From contig NZ_CAMJCX010000002.1 of assembly GCF_946404245.1 (NCBI RefSeq), positions 1 through 64,000 of the forward strand: DNA of 64,000 nt, written 5' to 3'. This document shows, one piece after another, positions 2,603 to 64,000 of this stretch. The stretch is from an uncultured Methanobrevibacter sp. GTDB lineage: Archaea > Methanobacteriota > Methanobacteria > Methanobacteriales > Methanobacteriaceae. The position numbers and the translations under genes were made by a program. The notes beneath the pieces are model-generated. The model searched no databases and was not told where the DNA came from. It saw nothing but the letters and a program-made list of their open reading frames with translations. Within the stretch, counting starts at the first letter, position 1. Every line of letters starts with the position of its first letter.

Positions 2603-2618
2603 TTTAGGCATTCCAAAA
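2603..2618. promoter_or_regulatory. DtxR-type box, imperfect, upstream of the ferredoxin promoter
   Basis: TTTAGGCATTCCAAAA has the TTAGG half-site exact and the second half CCAAA in place of CCTAA, with the same 4-base spacer as the other boxes in this window. It lies just upstream of the TATA-like TATTTATATAAT, and a second box lies just downstream. Confidence 0.5.
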
Positions 2619-2632
2619 TATTTATATAATAT
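2619..2632 (+). promoter_or_regulatory. TATA box of the ferredoxin gene
   Basis: ATTTATATAATATT lies about 42-55 bp before the ATG, between two DtxR-type boxes, which is the arrangement expected for repression by blocking TBP/TFB or polymerase. Confidence 0.5.
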
Positions 2633-2643
2633 TTTCAATATAA

Positions 2644-2657
2644 TTAGGTATACCTAA
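2644..2657. promoter_or_regulatory. DtxR-type operator, perfect palindrome
   Basis: TTAGGTATACCTAA is a perfect 14-bp palindrome placed where transcription should begin, 16 bp before the ferredoxin ATG. It matches the TTAGG-N4-CCTAA boxes in front of the P-type ATPase locus and of the DtxR-family gene at the window's right edge. Confidence 0.75.
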
Positions 2658-2673
2658 AAATGAGGCGTGTGAA

Positions 2674-2955
2674 ATGAGAAGTAGGCATGGTATGGGTCAT
2701 TCTTCAATTGGCCTGGAATTGGGTATGCACTTGTTTTCTGAATTTTTAAGGTCATCACATAAATCACGATGGCGCATAGGAAATGATATTCATAAGTGCA
2801 CATTATGTGGAAAATGCGAATTTGTCTGTCATGTTAATGCAATCACTGTCAGCGGGCATAATAAGACATGGACATTGAACAACAGAAGGTGCAATCAGTG
2901 TTTGGAATGTCTGATGAAATGTCCTGCACGCTGTCTAACACAGGTTAGGCTATAA
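2674..2955 (+). CDS. Small two-cluster [4Fe-4S] ferredoxin-like protein under DtxR-type boxes
   Basis: 93 residues. After an Arg/His-rich N-terminus (MRSRHGMGHSSIG) and a short hydrophobic stretch come two cluster motifs, CTLCGKCEFVC and CNQCLECLMKC, each followed by a further region with Pro or Ala as in 2[4Fe-4S] ferredoxins. The start ATG follows GAGG. Its promoter is flanked by two TTAGG-N4-CCTAA boxes, so it is probably iron- or manganese-controlled. The N-terminus resembles that of the 45-aa protein on the far side of the TnpB element (RSRHGMGHSS against RRHRHGRSPS), which suggests both belong to one system. The electron-transfer partner is unknown. Confidence 0.8.
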   Translation: MRSRHGMGHSSIGLELGMHLFSEFLRSSHKSRWRIGNDIHKCTLCGKCEFVCHVNAITVSGHNKTWTLNNRRCNQCLECLMKCPARCLTQVRL

Positions 2956-3005
2956 TTTCTTAAAACAATTGTTATCCTATATTTTATCTTTAAAATTCGA
3001 GAATA

Positions 3006-3027
3006 CCTCGACTTCTGCAAGTCGGGG
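3006..3027 (+). repeat. Left-end hairpin of the TnpB element
   Basis: A 9-bp stem (one G-T pair) with a CTGC loop. Its sequence matches the right-end hairpin closely, as expected for the subterminal structures recognised by TnpA in IS200/IS605 elements. Confidence 0.7.
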
Positions 3028-3303
3028 ATGAATTGAAAAGTTGGGTGTACTTTTGTTAATTGTCTATATAATTAGTTATTTTTTAAAATAAGCTTTTTTT
3101 ATAAGGTATTTAGGGGGATTATTATATTCACTATACTTTTTGATTTTCATATTAATATTGGAAAATTAATACTTTTCATATGCTCTCTTACTATTTCTTT
3201 ATAAATGGGGAAGTTGTTAATTTAATATTAGTGAGTCTTTAATTTTTGTATGTTAAAATTAAAGAACCATATAGTTTTAATTCAAAAATGTGGTGGATAT
3301 ATA

Positions 3304-4449
3304 ATGGATAAACGAGTAATGGCTATTAAGGTTAGACTTAAACCTTCACCTGAACAAATTGAAGAGTTTCATAAGAATTTCGGCTGTGTCAGGAAAGTTT
3401 ACAATCTAACCTTAAATGAATACAACAAATTATACGAAAAGGATAACAGTATAAAACCCAATTACACCTTCTTATATAATTTGATGATGAAATACAAAAA
3501 ATCAATCCCTTATTTGGATAAAATGGAATCCACAAGTTTACAGCAGTCCATAAGAGACTTAACCAACGCTTTTAATAATTTTTTTAAAAATCCTGCTCAT
3601 AATCTTCCAACTTTTCATCGCAAAAAAGATAAAAAATTCAGCTTCAGACAAACTATTCCACCAAACAAGAAAATCATAGAAAAAAACAAAATATCATTAA
3701 GAAAATACGGAAAAATACCATTTCAAACCAGTAAAGAGTACAGAAAACTGTTAAACCAACCTGATCTCAAAATCAACAATATAACAATAAAATATGATGG
3801 TATACATTACTATGCTATAATCAACATAAACTATGATACTCTTAAACATTTTGAATTGACTGGAAAGAAAATAGGCGTTGATATAAATTCAAATAAAAAC
3901 GGCTGGATAGTAACAAGCGACGGCGTTAAAGAACATTTCGATGTAAATCATGAAAACAAAATGATAAAATATCTAAACCAATTAATAAGCCCATGCAGAA
4001 AAAAATTAAGCCGAAAAAAGAAAGAATTACTAAAAAGACTACAAAAACAATACAACAAAAGAACCAACAAACTACAAGACTACCTAGAAAAACTTTCTTA
4101 TAACCTCGTAAAAAAATATGATGTCATAGTTTTTGAAAAAAATTATGCTAAAATCAAAATACTCATCGGAGGAGAACAAAATTTGATTTTTCCTCTATCT
4201 GAATTCATAAATAAATTAAAAAAGAAATTTGAATGGTACAAGCCAGAAGCTGAAGGAGTAGTGTTTGTTGATGCCAAAAATACCAGTAAAACATGCCACA
4301 AATGCGGCCATATAAATGAAAATTTAGATGTGAAAACACGAGATTGGATTTGCCCGAAATGCGGTGAAAAATTAGATAGGGATGTCAATGCTGCTATTAA
4401 CATACTTAACCGGTGGAACCCCGGGGATTGCCTAGAAAGCACTCAATAA
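3304..4449 (+). CDS. tnpB: TnpB RNA-guided nuclease of an IS200/IS605-type element
   Basis: 381 residues from the ATG at 3304, which follows GGTGG; the ORF track start at 3250 lies in leader sequence. The N-terminal helix-turn-helix part (KVRLKPSPEQIEEFHKNFG) is followed by the RuvC domain with all three acidic residues in place: Asp193 in GVDIN, Glu278 in VFEKN and Asp360 in DRDVNAA. A CxxC...CxxC zinc ribbon (CHKCG, CPKCG) lies between the last two. TnpB proteins are transposon-encoded nucleases guided by a RNA from the element's right end. It appears full length and catalytically intact. Confidence 0.9.
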   Translation: MDKRVMAIKVRLKPSPEQIEEFHKNFGCVRKVYNLTLNEYNKLYEKDNSIKPNYTFLYNLMMKYKKSIPYLDKMESTSLQQSIRDLTNAFNNFFKNPAHNLPTFHRKKDKKFSFRQTIPPNKKIIEKNKISLRKYGKIPFQTSKEYRKLLNQPDLKINNITIKYDGIHYYAIININYDTLKHFELTGKKIGVDINSNKNGWIVTSDGVKEHFDVNHENKMIKYLNQLISPCRKKLSRKKKELLKRLQKQYNKRTNKLQDYLEKLSYNLVKKYDVIVFEKNYAKIKILIGGEQNLIFPLSEFINKLKKKFEWYKPEAEGVVFVDAKNTSKTCHKCGHINENLDVKTRDWICPKCGEKLDRDVNAAINILNRWNPGDCLESTQ

Positions 4450-4504
4450 ACGATTGAGTAATAAAAACAAAACTCTAGGAATCCTCGCCTTCTTCAAGGC
4501 GAGG
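4400..4504 (+). ncRNA. Probable omega RNA (reRNA) of the TnpB element
   Basis: In this family the guide RNA scaffold spans the 3' end of tnpB and the right end, and the guide is read from the flanking host DNA. Here the interval contains a CCGGTGGAACCCCGG segment, the paired ACTCAATAAACGATTGAGT hairpin (4441-4459) and the terminal 9-bp hairpin (4483-4504). Bases after 4504, including the start of the 45-aa gene, would form the guide. The 5' boundary is an estimate. Confidence 0.5.
4483..4504 (+). repeat. Right-end hairpin of the TnpB element
   Basis: A perfect 9-bp stem with a CTTC loop, nearly identical to the left-end hairpin. Its 3' arm ends in GCGAGG, which lies 8 bp before the ATG of the next small gene and could serve as its ribosome binding site. 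Confidence 0.75.
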
Positions 4505-4512
4505 TTGTTCAA

Positions 4513-4650
4513 ATGGGACGTAGACACAGACATGGTAGATCACCTAGTTTGTTGCATTTGTTAGCTCCTGGGCACTATCCCGCAAAGGCTAATTTAATCC
4601 ATGATGTTGCATTAGGTGCTCTTATCGCTCGTGAGATTATTAAGAAATAA
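4513..4650 (+). CDS. 45-residue Arg/His-rich small protein of unknown function
   Basis: Not in the ORF track. The ORF reads MGRRHRHGRSPSLLHLLAPG, then a helix ending HDVALGALIAREIIKK. The only ribosome-binding-like sequence, GAGG, comes from the right end of the TnpB element. The N-terminus is Arg/His-rich like that of the ferredoxin upstream of the element, and the middle is hydrophobic. Four DtxR-type boxes and a P1B-type ATPase operon follow, so it likely belongs to the same metal locus. I do not recognise a family. The coding nature is supported by clean codon use and the abrupt stop, not by homology. Confidence 0.5.
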   Translation: MGRRHRHGRSPSLLHLLAPGHYPAKANLIHDVALGALIAREIIKK

Positions 4651-4684
4651 TTTCTCTACTATTTTTTTTATTCTGATTTTCAAT

Positions 4685-4698
4685 TTAGGTTTGCTTAA
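4685..4698. promoter_or_regulatory. DtxR-type box, one mismatch
   Basis: TTAGGTTTGCTTAA differs from TTAGG-N4-CCTAA at one position and has the same TTTG spacer as the perfect box at 4981. It lies just downstream of the 45-aa gene. Confidence 0.5.
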
Positions 4699-4726
4699 AA
4701 TTCTTTATTTCCAATTCTTTCTATTT

Positions 4727-4740
4727 TTAGGATTATCTAA
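4727..4740. promoter_or_regulatory. DtxR-type box, one mismatch
   Basis: TTAGGATTATCTAA has one mismatch in the second half-site. Together with the box at 4685 it forms a pair 42 bp apart, the same pairing seen around the ferredoxin promoter (40 bp). I see no good gene directly behind this pair: 4741-4980 is AT-rich and contains no supportable ORF, only tiny ones such as a 22-codon ATG ORF at 4889. Confidence 0.4.
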
Positions 4741-4980
4741 ACTATTTTTTTGATTATCAAAAATTATTTTTTTATTTAACTAAATATTATTCTTTGTTTA
4801 ACTTAAAAAAGCTCTTAAAATCGAATACTTTAAATATGATAAATTAGTTAATCTAATATGTCAAATAACTCATGTGGCTAAATTGAGGATGGAACTGTCA
4901 CGGGGTTATATTTGCAGATGTAATCAAATTACTTTTTTTCTGAGCTTCAAGTTTTGATTTTATACAATATTCCCTTGTAT

Positions 4981-4994
4981 TTAGGTTTGCCTAA
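4981..4994. promoter_or_regulatory. DtxR-type operator, perfect half-sites
   Basis: TTAGGTTTGCCTAA has both half-sites exact. It lies just before the TATA-like AAAATATATATAAT (4993-5006) of the DUF6110-ATPase operon; a partner box follows at 5036. Confidence 0.75.
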
Positions 4995-5006
4995 AATATA
5001 TATAAT
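4993..5006 (+). promoter_or_regulatory. TATA box of the small protein/P-type ATPase operon
   Basis: An AAAATATATATAAT stretch about 90 bp before the ATG at 5092, placed between two DtxR-type boxes. The implied transcript start near 5030 overlaps the second box. Confidence 0.5.
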
Positions 5007-5035
5007 ATTGTTTACATATGTAGTGATGTGATAAT

Positions 5036-5049
5036 TTAGTTTTGCCTAA
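5036..5049. promoter_or_regulatory. DtxR-type box overlapping the expected transcription start
   Basis: TTAGTTTTGCCTAA has one mismatch in the first half-site, inside a longer inverted repeat AATTTAG...CTAAATT. It is 55 bp from the perfect box on the other side of the TATA element. Confidence 0.6.
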
Positions 5050-5091
5050 ATTATCAGGTAAATTAAAAATTTTTTTTAGGATGGTATAGAA

Positions 5092-5358
5092 ATGAAACGT
5101 GAAGATATAATTAATACTTGTGTAGAACATAAACATGCTTTAATTTTTGCAGCAGGAATCGCAACAGCTATTGTTGGTAAAAAAATATTAGAATCAAAAG
5201 TTGTTAAAGATGCCGCAACCCAAGGTATGGCTACCGTAATGTCTGCTAAAAAAGATGCAGAAGAATGCTTCCAAGACATGAGAGAAAACGCAGAAGACAT
5301 TGTTGTTGACGCTCACGAAGAAGATAAAAAAGAAATTTACGTAGAAGCAAAAGATTAG
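5092..5358 (+). CDS. DUF6110-like small protein encoded with the P1B-type ATPase
   Basis: 88 residues: a short polar N-terminus, one hydrophobic segment (HALIFAAGIATAIVGKKIL, about residues 14-32), an Ala/Lys-rich helix and an acidic tail. It resembles the small proteins with one hydrophobic helix annotated as DUF6110 that precede heavy-metal P-type ATPases in anaerobes. The ATG follows TTTTAGGATGG. It begins the operon with the ATPase 24 bp downstream, behind DtxR-type boxes. It may bind or organise a metal-containing membrane, but its function is not known; the family label is from memory and moderately sure. Confidence 0.7.
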   Translation: MKREDIINTCVEHKHALIFAAGIATAIVGKKILESKVVKDAATQGMATVMSAKKDAEECFQDMRENAEDIVVDAHEEDKKEIYVEAKD

Positions 5359-5382
5359 ATTTAATTTTTCAAGGTAATAAAA

Positions 5383-7530
5383 ATGAAATATCAAGTAATG
5401 CATGATAGCGGGCCTCGTTTAAGAGTCCGTGCCGGCCAATGGGCCTTCACAAAAGAGGAAGGCTACGGTCTCGCTTCATTACTTTTAGATCAGGATTTTA
5501 TTCATGACGTTTTCACATCACACAGAAACGGCAGTATAACAATATACTATGACGGTGATACTGAAAGCAAGCAAAAAATATTCAGTATTCTAAACGGAAT
5601 AACCATTGACGATTTGTTTGAAGCTGAACCAACTCAGACTCAGGTTTCAAAAGAAATCACTGACGATTTCTACCTGAAACTGTCCAAAATGATTGGACGC
5701 AGGTTGCTTGGAAGATGGTTCCTGCCACTCCCAATCAAAAACGCTTTAACAATCTATCGTGCAATCCATTATGTTTGGAATGGATTGGACAGCTTAACAG
5801 ATTTCCGTGTTGATGTGGCTTTACTCGATGGTGCTGCAGTTGCAGGGGCATTGTTACAAGGACAATACCAGCCTGCAAGTTCCATGATGTTCTTGTTGTC
5901 AATCTCCGACGCTTTAGAAGACTACACAGTACAGAAAGCTAAAAGTACATTAAAAGACAGTTTAGCTTTAAATATTGATACAGTTTGGGTAGTCGGAGAC
6001 GACGGCGAGGAAAAACAAGTCCCTGCATTGGATATTGAAAAAGGAGATAAAATCAAAGTCCATATGGGTGATGTGATCCCTGTTGATGGAAAAGTAGTTG
6101 ACGGCGAGGCAATGGTTAATGAAGCTTCAATGACCGGGGAACCGTTAGCGGTTCACAAGACTGAAGGCAAGACAGTTCATGCCGGAACAGTCATTGAAGA
6201 GGGAAATATTATTGTCGAAGTTTATTCAATGAATAAGGAAACCAGATTAAACAAGATTATTGACCTAATTGAAAATTCAGAGGATTTAAAGGCTGAAACT
6301 CAAAGTAAGGCAGAAAAACTTGCTGATTCAATTGTCCCATACAGTTTCCTTGCAACAGCATTGACATATCTGATTACAAGAAATGCATCAAAGGCATTGT
6401 CTGTACTGATGGTTGATTTCTCATGTGCAATCAAATTGACCACTCCACTATCCATCATATCTGCAATGCGTGAAGCATCAGACAACAGAATGATGGTTAA
6501 AGGTGGAAAATTCCTTGAAGCTTATGCAAATGCCGACACCATTGTATTCGATAAGACCGGAACATTGACCAACGCAACACCGAAAGTTGTTGAAGTCATT
6601 CCAATGTCCAGAAGATACAAACGCAATGACATCCTAAGGATGGCGGCATGTATTGAGGAACACTTTGCACACAGTATCGCTACAGCTATCGTAAAACAGG
6701 CTGAAGAGGAAGGTCTCAAACATGAAGAGGACCACAGTGAAGTTGAATATATCGTAGCTCACGGTATTGCAACCGAATATGACGGTAAACGTGCAGTAAT
6801 CGGATCAAGACACTTCCTGTTTGACGATGAGGGAGTCAAGCTAACCAAAGCTCAAGAGAAAAAGGTCGAAAAAGAGGCAAAAGAGCATTCTGTTGTTTAT
6901 CTGGCAATCGACGGAAAACTTGAAGGACTCATTTGCATTGACGACCCTGTCCGTGAAGAGGCAAAATACGTAATCGAAGAGCTGAAATCATTGGGCATTG
7001 AAAATGTCATCATGCTCACAGGAGACAGTGAAAGCGGTGCTAAAGCAGGTGCTAAGGCACTGGGCATCACCGAATACAGGTCACAAGTGCTTCCTGAAGA
7101 CAAGTCAAGGATTGTTGAAGAGCTTAAGGCTGAAGGCAAGACAGTTATCATGGTAGGGGACGGCATTAATGATTCACCTGCTCTTGCGGCTGCGGATGTG
7201 TCCGTTTCAATGAAACATTCATCTGATATTGCCCGTGAGGTTGCGGATATTTCACTGCTTTCCGATGATTTGTATGATCTTGTAACACTTAGAAAACTGA
7301 GTGCAGGAATGTTGGACAAAATCAACTCCAACTACCGCAACATTGTTGCAGTAAACGGTTCACTATTGGTTTTAGGCGTAATGGGTGTAATTCCACCGTC
7401 AACATCTTCAATGGTGCATAATCTGTCTACAATGCTGTTCGGTGCAATGAGTACCAAATCTGTTTTAAAAGATAATGATTTCTCAAACGATATTGAAGTA
7501 GAGGCTATTGAAGTAGCTGATGCTTCATAA
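5383..7530 (+). CDS. P1B-type metal-transporting ATPase with SCA motif (P1B-6/FezB-like)
   Basis: 715 residues. The N-terminus (HDSGPRLRVRAG) is Arg-rich and followed by an HMA-like fold lacking the CxxC metal site. The core has the actuator motif TGEP, the phosphorylation site DKTGTLT (Asp390), an HS-containing nucleotide-binding domain, and GDGINDSPALAAAD. The transmembrane metal motif is DFSCAIKLTTP: Ser347-Cys348-Ala349 where Cu and Zn pumps have CPC. To my knowledge SCA defines the P1B-6 group, which includes FezB, the ATPase needed to form ferrosomes (iron-phosphate compartments). Operon with the 88-aa gene; DtxR-type boxes imply expression when iron or manganese is scarce. A plain Mn/Fe exporter is the main alternative. 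Confidence 0.85.
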   Translation: MKYQVMHDSGPRLRVRAGQWAFTKEEGYGLASLLLDQDFIHDVFTSHRNGSITIYYDGDTESKQKIFSILNGITIDDLFEAEPTQTQVSKEITDDFYLKLSKMIGRRLLGRWFLPLPIKNALTIYRAIHYVWNGLDSLTDFRVDVALLDGAAVAGALLQGQYQPASSMMFLLSISDALEDYTVQKAKSTLKDSLALNIDTVWVVGDDGEEKQVPALDIEKGDKIKVHMGDVIPVDGKVVDGEAMVNEASMTGEPLAVHKTEGKTVHAGTVIEEGNIIVEVYSMNKETRLNKIIDLIENSEDLKAETQSKAEKLADSIVPYSFLATALTYLITRNASKALSVLMVDFSCAIKLTTPLSIISAMREASDNRMMVKGGKFLEAYANADTIVFDKTGTLTNATPKVVEVIPMSRRYKRNDILRMAACIEEHFAHSIATAIVKQAEEEGLKHEEDHSEVEYIVAHGIATEYDGKRAVIGSRHFLFDDEGVKLTKAQEKKVEKEAKEHSVVYLAIDGKLEGLICIDDPVREEAKYVIEELKSLGIENVIMLTGDSESGAKAGAKALGITEYRSQVLPEDKSRIVEELKAEGKTVIMVGDGINDSPALAAADVSVSMKHSSDIAREVADISLLSDDLYDLVTLRKLSAGMLDKINSNYRNIVAVNGSLLVLGVMGVIPPSTSSMVHNLSTMLFGAMSTKSVLKDNDFSNDIEVEAIEVADAS

Positions 7531-7646: not shown

Positions 7647-7856
7647 ATGGCAAATCCTATACTCGCAGCGATATTATCATTCTTGATTCCAGGATTAGGT
7701 CAAATCTATGCTGGTGATATGCAAAAAGGATTAATATTTATTGTAATTTTGATTGTATTGATGATTGTCGGTTTCTTTACAGGATTTTTGACATCAATTA
7801 TTAATATAATTTTCTCAATCTATGCTGCATATGACGCTTACAAATTAGCACAGTAG
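7647..7856 (+). CDS. TM2-like small membrane protein
   Basis: 69 residues, MANPILAAILSFLIPGLGQI onward, with two to three hydrophobic segments. The pattern SFLIPGLGQIYAGDMQKG is that of TM2-type two-helix proteins, which are common in methanogens and have no defined biochemical role. The ORF track starts at 7632, but that ATG overlaps the ribosome binding site GGAGGT (7635-7640); the ATG at 7647 has ideal spacing. Monocistronic, with its own promoter region and a T-rich end. Confidence 0.75.
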   Translation: MANPILAAILSFLIPGLGQIYAGDMQKGLIFIVILIVLMIVGFFTGFLTSIINIIFSIYAAYDAYKLAQ

Positions 7857-63824: not shown

Positions 63825-63838
63825 TTAGGTTTACCCAA
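63825..63838. promoter_or_regulatory. DtxR-type box of the DtxR-family gene
   Basis: TTAGGTTTACCCAA, one mismatch to TTAGG-N4-CCTAA, just before the TATA-like TTTTTTATACTC. It suggests the regulator controls its own promoter. Confidence 0.6.
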
Positions 63839-63893
63839 ACTTTTTTATACTCTTAATTACAGAAATTAAATTAATAATATTTAGGTGAATCTC

Positions 63894-64000
63894 ATGGCTG
63901 ATGACAAGATAAGTGAAAATATTGAGGAATATTTGGAAGTTCTCTATCGTAATGGAAGTAATGGGGAACAGGTTTCAACAACAATGCTGTCAAAAGAGCT
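63894..64000 (+). CDS. DtxR-family metal-dependent regulator, 5' part only
   Basis: The visible 35 residues read MADDKISENIEEYLEVLYRN and then QVSTTMLSKEL, the start of the winged-helix domain of DtxR/IdeR/MntR regulators (ISENIEEYLE.LY is characteristic). AGGTGAAT precedes the ATG. The gene runs off the window. The same TTAGG-N4-CCTAA box upstream of it, the ferredoxin and the P1B ATPase operon makes it the probable controller of all three; iron or manganese as co-repressor cannot be told. Confidence 0.8.
   Translation, partial: MADDKISENIEEYLEVLYRNGSNGEQVSTTMLSKE

Follow-up and report, generated by a model that had tools for sequence, protein, structure and literature searches.

In the 64,000-nucleotide stretch of DNA analysed here (the window), which forms the start of a 67-kb contig within the 1.83-Mb draft genome of an uncultured Methanobrevibacter sp., we identified a two-gene unit encoding an 88-amino-acid (aa) one-helix protein of family DUF6110 (positions 5092..5358, + strand) and a 715-aa P1B ATPase (5383..7530, + strand), with only 24 bp between the two genes. 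This pair is the core of a locus for which a sequence-only reading had proposed an iron-storage compartment. Our analysis suggests that it is probably a FezAB-type iron-sequestering system, in which the ATPase is of the P1B-6, FezB type and the PacL-like DUF6110 protein is the candidate FezA. A FezB-type ATPase with the gene of a small membrane partner directly upstream is gene content expected of a ferrosome (fez) locus, which makes this locus a candidate of that kind.

The ATPase scores 497 bits as a heavy-metal P1B ATPase (NCBIfam). Its fourth transmembrane helix (TM4) reads DFSCAIKL, with SCA instead of CPC at S347-C348-A349, as had been noted before, while TM6 reads MVHNLST (H679-N680). 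C348, H679 and N680 are unchanged across the 27 relatives compared, drawn from archaea, Firmicutes, Deinococcus and Proteobacteria. HN in TM6 has been published as a mark of P1B6 ATPases (PMC9374683), and the window ATPase combines it with a non-CPC TM4 site, the pattern expected of P1B-6. The N-terminus is Arg-rich and lacks a Cys motif, again as described earlier (RLRVR at 12-16, zero cysteine in residues 1-80). A structure model (predicted local distance difference test score, pLDDT, 79; predicted template modelling score, pTM, 0.61) confirms the P1B fold, the N-terminal domain being small and of alpha/beta type, and goes no further than that.

Two maximum-likelihood trees, a quick one of 76 rows and a careful one of 42 rows, agree on the placement of this ATPase, with 'fez-type' rows assigned from operon make-up and not from named FezB sequences. 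The archaeal DUF6110-linked ATPases form a single clade (branch support 99; 100/99), nested with DUF6110-linked ATPases of Firmicutes and Deinococcus and with those Desulfovibrionaceae ATPases that are accompanied by a one-TM protein (100; 100/100). Next to them, as sister group, stand the ATPases of the multi-gene fez type (joint branch 97; 100/100), and outside fall CtpC-like ATPases, ZntA, CopA and the source genome's own CPC pumps. The comparison with FezB, CtpC and other P1B groups that had been proposed as a check thus groups the ATPase with fez-type P1B-6 enzymes, as judged by operon make-up. An ordinary Cu or Zn pump is ruled out by the TM4 and TM6 motifs and by the trees, and we also rejected a CtpC-like assignment, since CtpC-like ATPases occupy a separate branch and carry CPC in TM4. 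FezB is said to occur in archaea in the 2022 paper on ferrosomes.

The partner protein matches Pfam PF19605 at 33.7 bits, above the family cut-off of 26 bits; its match to DUF1490 is weak (14.5 bits against a cut-off of 28.4). Aligned with Firmicutes members and DUF1490, copies from the genus and its close kin show a conserved EHKH[AV]L, followed by a Gly-rich helix and an acidic tail, with no PacL-type His-rich end. Of 67 genus genomes, 59 encode DUF6110, as do 101 of the 152 genomes of a phylum sample where, among the matches listed, all belong to one family, Methanobacteriaceae. A P1B ATPase adjoins it in every one of the 40 loci examined, with SCA or SCS in TM4 in 33 and CPC in 7. Gene-neighbourhood comparison, as suggested with the sequence-only reading, therefore reveals a DUF6110-ATPase pair that is widespread in Methanobacteriaceae. 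The same reading had expected small lineage-specific partners, which does not hold for the 88-aa protein, a member of a widespread Pfam family; the 45-aa protein discussed below is rare, with copies in 5 of the 67 genus genomes.

Such pairs had been reported before: Boudehen et al. 2022 (PMC9374683) describe DUF6110 as resembling DUF1490/PacL, as typically co-encoded with P1B6 ATPases and as occurring in archaea, and list the pairs in Firmicutes, other bacteria and Archaea. There the pairs were proposed to be efflux platforms, and the portion of the text consulted gives no iron boxes, feoAB linkage or ferredoxin neighbour. A platform of this PacL/CtpC-like kind, in which DUF6110 would bring ATPase molecules together at the plasma membrane for the expulsion of surplus Fe(II) or some other divalent metal, is the main rival to iron sequestration. 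It draws on the kinship of DUF6110 with DUF1490/PacL, which forms such platforms with CtpC, on export being the general direction of P1B ATPases, and on the fact that archaeal DUF6110 also partners a ZntA-like CPC pump. In the PacL1-CtpC zinc efflux platform of Mycobacterium tuberculosis, as in the window, the gene of a one-TM small protein precedes that of an ATPase whose TM6 carries HN. Unlike the window pair, however, that system responds to zinc stress, has CPC in TM4 and a His-rich metal-binding PacL tail, and its ATPase lies on another branch. A platform of the PacL (DUF1490) type would combine a C-terminal His/Asp motif with a CPC ATPase; the window has the weak DUF1490 match, no His-rich tail and SCA. 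Together with the regulatory evidence below, this makes efflux a rather unlikely explanation.

The boxes provide the link to iron. Exact TTAGG-N4-CCTAA boxes, which the sequence-only reading had placed upstream of these genes, lie at 2644..2657, 16 bp 5' of the ferredoxin start codon, and at 4981..4994, approximately 100 bp upstream of the DUF6110 gene. One-mismatch copies surround them: a box at 5036..5049, also upstream of the DUF6110 gene, and a near-box, TTAGG-N4-CCAAA, at 2604..2617 upstream of the ferredoxin gene, in a form that recurs before the ferredoxin in relatives. Allowing at most one mismatch, the window contains 7 boxes against 1.9 expected, a number reached in 0 of 100 shuffles, and 6 of the 7 are within this locus. 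Genome-wide, there are 21 exact boxes against 4 for a reversed control pattern. Of 25 related loci, 17 have an exact box in the 350 bp that precede the DUF6110 gene; box density in this upstream stretch is 2.8 per kb, compared with 0.09 per kb in the rest of the same loci (approximately 30-fold). The window shuffles, the reversed-pattern control and the upstream enrichment together rule out chance boxes.

A one-mismatch box at 63825..63838 precedes by approximately 47 bp the gene for a DtxR-family regulator (63885..64000 in the window, + strand, continuing to contig position 64607; PF01325, PF02742 and a C-terminal FeoA domain). This is the only DtxR-family match in the source genome, and its product likely reads the boxes. 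Other box sites in the genome are near two feoB genes, a flavodoxin, a nitroreductase, mobB and cbiM. Iron-responsive control of the kind reported for fez clusters may apply here: the boxes are shared with feoB and flavodoxin, and a near-box lies at the DtxR gene. Boxes of this sort are absent upstream of the pair in three related loci (L039, L048 and L049), in which it comes after feoB, feoA and a small Cys-rich gene, all on one strand. Among bacteria, DUF6110-ATPase pairs adjoin FeoB (L120), a Fur-family gene (L118) and a DtxR-family gene (L125).

Because the boxes are shared with importer genes and the pair runs on from feoB-feoA in three relatives, iron loading under iron limitation is favoured over simple efflux. 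The same evidence bears on whether the pump carries Mn, Co or Ni instead, under a DtxR-type regulator sensing such a metal. Some DtxR-family proteins do sense Mn, and one box is upstream of cbiM; with boxes at two feoB genes and the flavodoxin, and with feoAB linkage in relatives, we regard this as improbable.

We propose that at low iron the DtxR-type repressor would leave the boxes, so that the pair is made alongside flavodoxin and FeoB, which imports ferrous iron. DUF6110, with its single helix, would collect and stabilize ATPase molecules in the membrane, and these would transport Fe(II) from the cytosol into a membrane-enclosed store inside the cell for later use. Making such a pump together with an importer would be a futile cycle unless an inner compartment were being filled, which is the logic of a ferrosome. 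Where a ferredoxin is present, it may control the redox state of that iron, a role proposed for the haem protein FezC of certain bacterial ferrosomes; mineral or phosphate may be bound by the Arg/His peptide. The earlier proposal of an iron-storage compartment system is thus supported in part, by the ATPase family and by the boxes common to feoB, flavodoxin and the DtxR gene; the compartment itself is an inference.

DUF6110 also has a second setting. In another system of the genus, the gene for a ZntA-like CPC pump, which is mostly 860-930 aa long and has an N-terminus rich in Cys and His, has one to three DUF6110 genes behind it. This system is seen in L040, L042, L043, L045, L047, L053 and L074 and in the source genome (C40, L260), where the pump gene is close to the end of a contig and is preceded by an ArsR-family gene. 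PacL-like partners are thus found with two different archaeal pumps.

Several points weigh against a FezAB-type store. DUF6110 does not by itself mark storage, because it is found with the CPC pump under an ArsR-type gene, and we discarded it as such a marker. The trees include no named FezB reference, so that fez-type membership rests on operon make-up. The locus has no FezC or HMA2 companion gene, and ferritin-family genes are also present in the source genome. A search of the genome for a FezC-type cytochrome found only a DUF4405 protein, away from the locus and beside a flavodoxin gene without a box. At that site (L258, C74 of the source genome), the DUF4405-type membrane protein is encoded directly after a flavodoxin-like gene with a signal peptide. 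To our knowledge, the genus is not known for cytochromes.

The pair can be compared with bacterial ferrosome genes of two kinds. Clostridioides difficile ferrosomes require FezA and FezB, both Fur-repressed (PMC12574912) and encoded by CD630_05910-05920 (PMC11651100). In the part of an iron/Fur study that was available, the four values tabulated for CD630_05910, in columns that this part does not identify, are all positive (2.41, 6.77, 2.80 and 7.54; PMC6311696). Like the window pair, C. difficile fezAB encodes a small membrane protein and a FezB ATPase. It is iron-responsive, as the boxes suggest that the window pair may be; its control is by Fur, whereas the window has DtxR-type boxes, and the archaeal system, known here from genes alone, has a ferredoxin and RH45 (the 45-aa protein) beside the pair in some species. 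The window protein is a candidate equivalent of FezA, a correspondence unconfirmed by name. A 4.26-Mb genome from the family of Clostridioides mangenotii (L199) encodes DUF6110 (73.9 bits) with an SCA/HN ATPase of the same clade as that of the window.

Multi-gene clusters are exemplified by the six fez genes of Rhodopseudomonas palustris, RPA2333-2338 (PMC12016538), and we found look-alikes in Azospirillum (L108), Hahella (L127) and Rhodobacter capsulatus (L137). These proteobacterial clusters share with the window a P1B-6 ATPase whose N-terminus is Arg-rich and whose TM6 carries HN, and a one-TM protein encoded just upstream, but they have extra HMA2 and YtxH-type genes and their ATPases form the sister clade. 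In some bacterial ferrosomes FezC is a cytochrome (PMC10979944); the window locus encodes none.

All genes of the locus are read in the same direction on the + strand, in the order ferredoxin, TnpB, RH45, DUF6110 and ATPase. The two-[4Fe-4S] ferredoxin (2674..2955; Pfam Fer4_7, 33.5 bits) has an R/H-rich N-terminal extension, and its N-terminal region recurs in 21 of 67 genus genomes. RH45 (4513..4650) is Arg/His-rich and rare; it is conserved in L044 and L071, and one of its five copies in the genus carries a stop. Differences between the window and L044 at the three codon positions number 8/6/16 for RH45 and 20/11/47 for the ferredoxin, a third-position bias indicating that both look like real genes.

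Both genes could well be unrelated to the pair, mere neighbours under the same boxes, and we give this somewhat less than even weight. The ferredoxin is missing near the pair in about two thirds of genus genomes, RH45 is rare, and in one genome (G077) the ferredoxin keeps its place while the pair sits with feo genes. Yet 18 of the 21 ferredoxin copies (approximately a quarter of the genus) adjoin a DUF6110 gene, and in L245 the ferredoxin, DUF6110 and ATPase genes are in tandem. The ferredoxin is thus a frequent yet optional neighbour of the pair. It is our guess that it stands here in place of FezC; the wider idea that in ferrosome-like stores of methanogens a box-controlled dedicated ferredoxin replaces the cytochrome beside a FezB-type pump, with the Arg/His peptide helping to hold mineral, is speculative and rather unlikely.

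Iron storage in anaerobic methanogens has been described as unclear, type I methanogens often having ferritin homologues with unsuitable O2-dependent chemistry (PMC8351635). Here the FezAB-type pair offers two specific candidate genes: it is linked to FeoAB and to DtxR-type boxes, and most genomes of this major genus of gut methanogens carry it. Its family membership and a box switch common to iron-uptake genes suggest a way for methanogens to hoard iron. If so, gut archaea would share with bacteria an organelle-forming iron system, with possible effects on iron competition.

The earlier list of parts, in which the ferredoxin, the 45-aa open reading frame, the 88-aa protein, the ATPase and the boxes all stood, had left out the 399-aa TnpB gene of IS200/IS605 type at 3250..4449 (+ strand; NCBIfam guided_TnpB, 195 bits). 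This gene is an insertion between ferredoxin and RH45, outside the iron system. It is missing from L044, L071 and L051, and in the first two the distance from ferredoxin to RH45 is approximately 160 bp. Its right-hand hairpin stops approximately 4 bp ahead of the RH45 start codon, replacing native upstream sequence. No TnpA adjoins it, and Rfam gave no match for a guide RNA at TnpB and none for any RNA element in the locus.

A Cys-rich protein of 64-69 aa (MKCRxCGxEFDE...), without a Pfam match, is encoded beside feoA/feoB in L039, L048, L049 and L097 (C11 of the source genome), and is likely a small iron or zinc partner of Feo. Finally, 3' of the ATPase gene, positions 7647-7856 of the window encode a small DUF6677-like membrane protein (27 bits), matched at this place only in L051.

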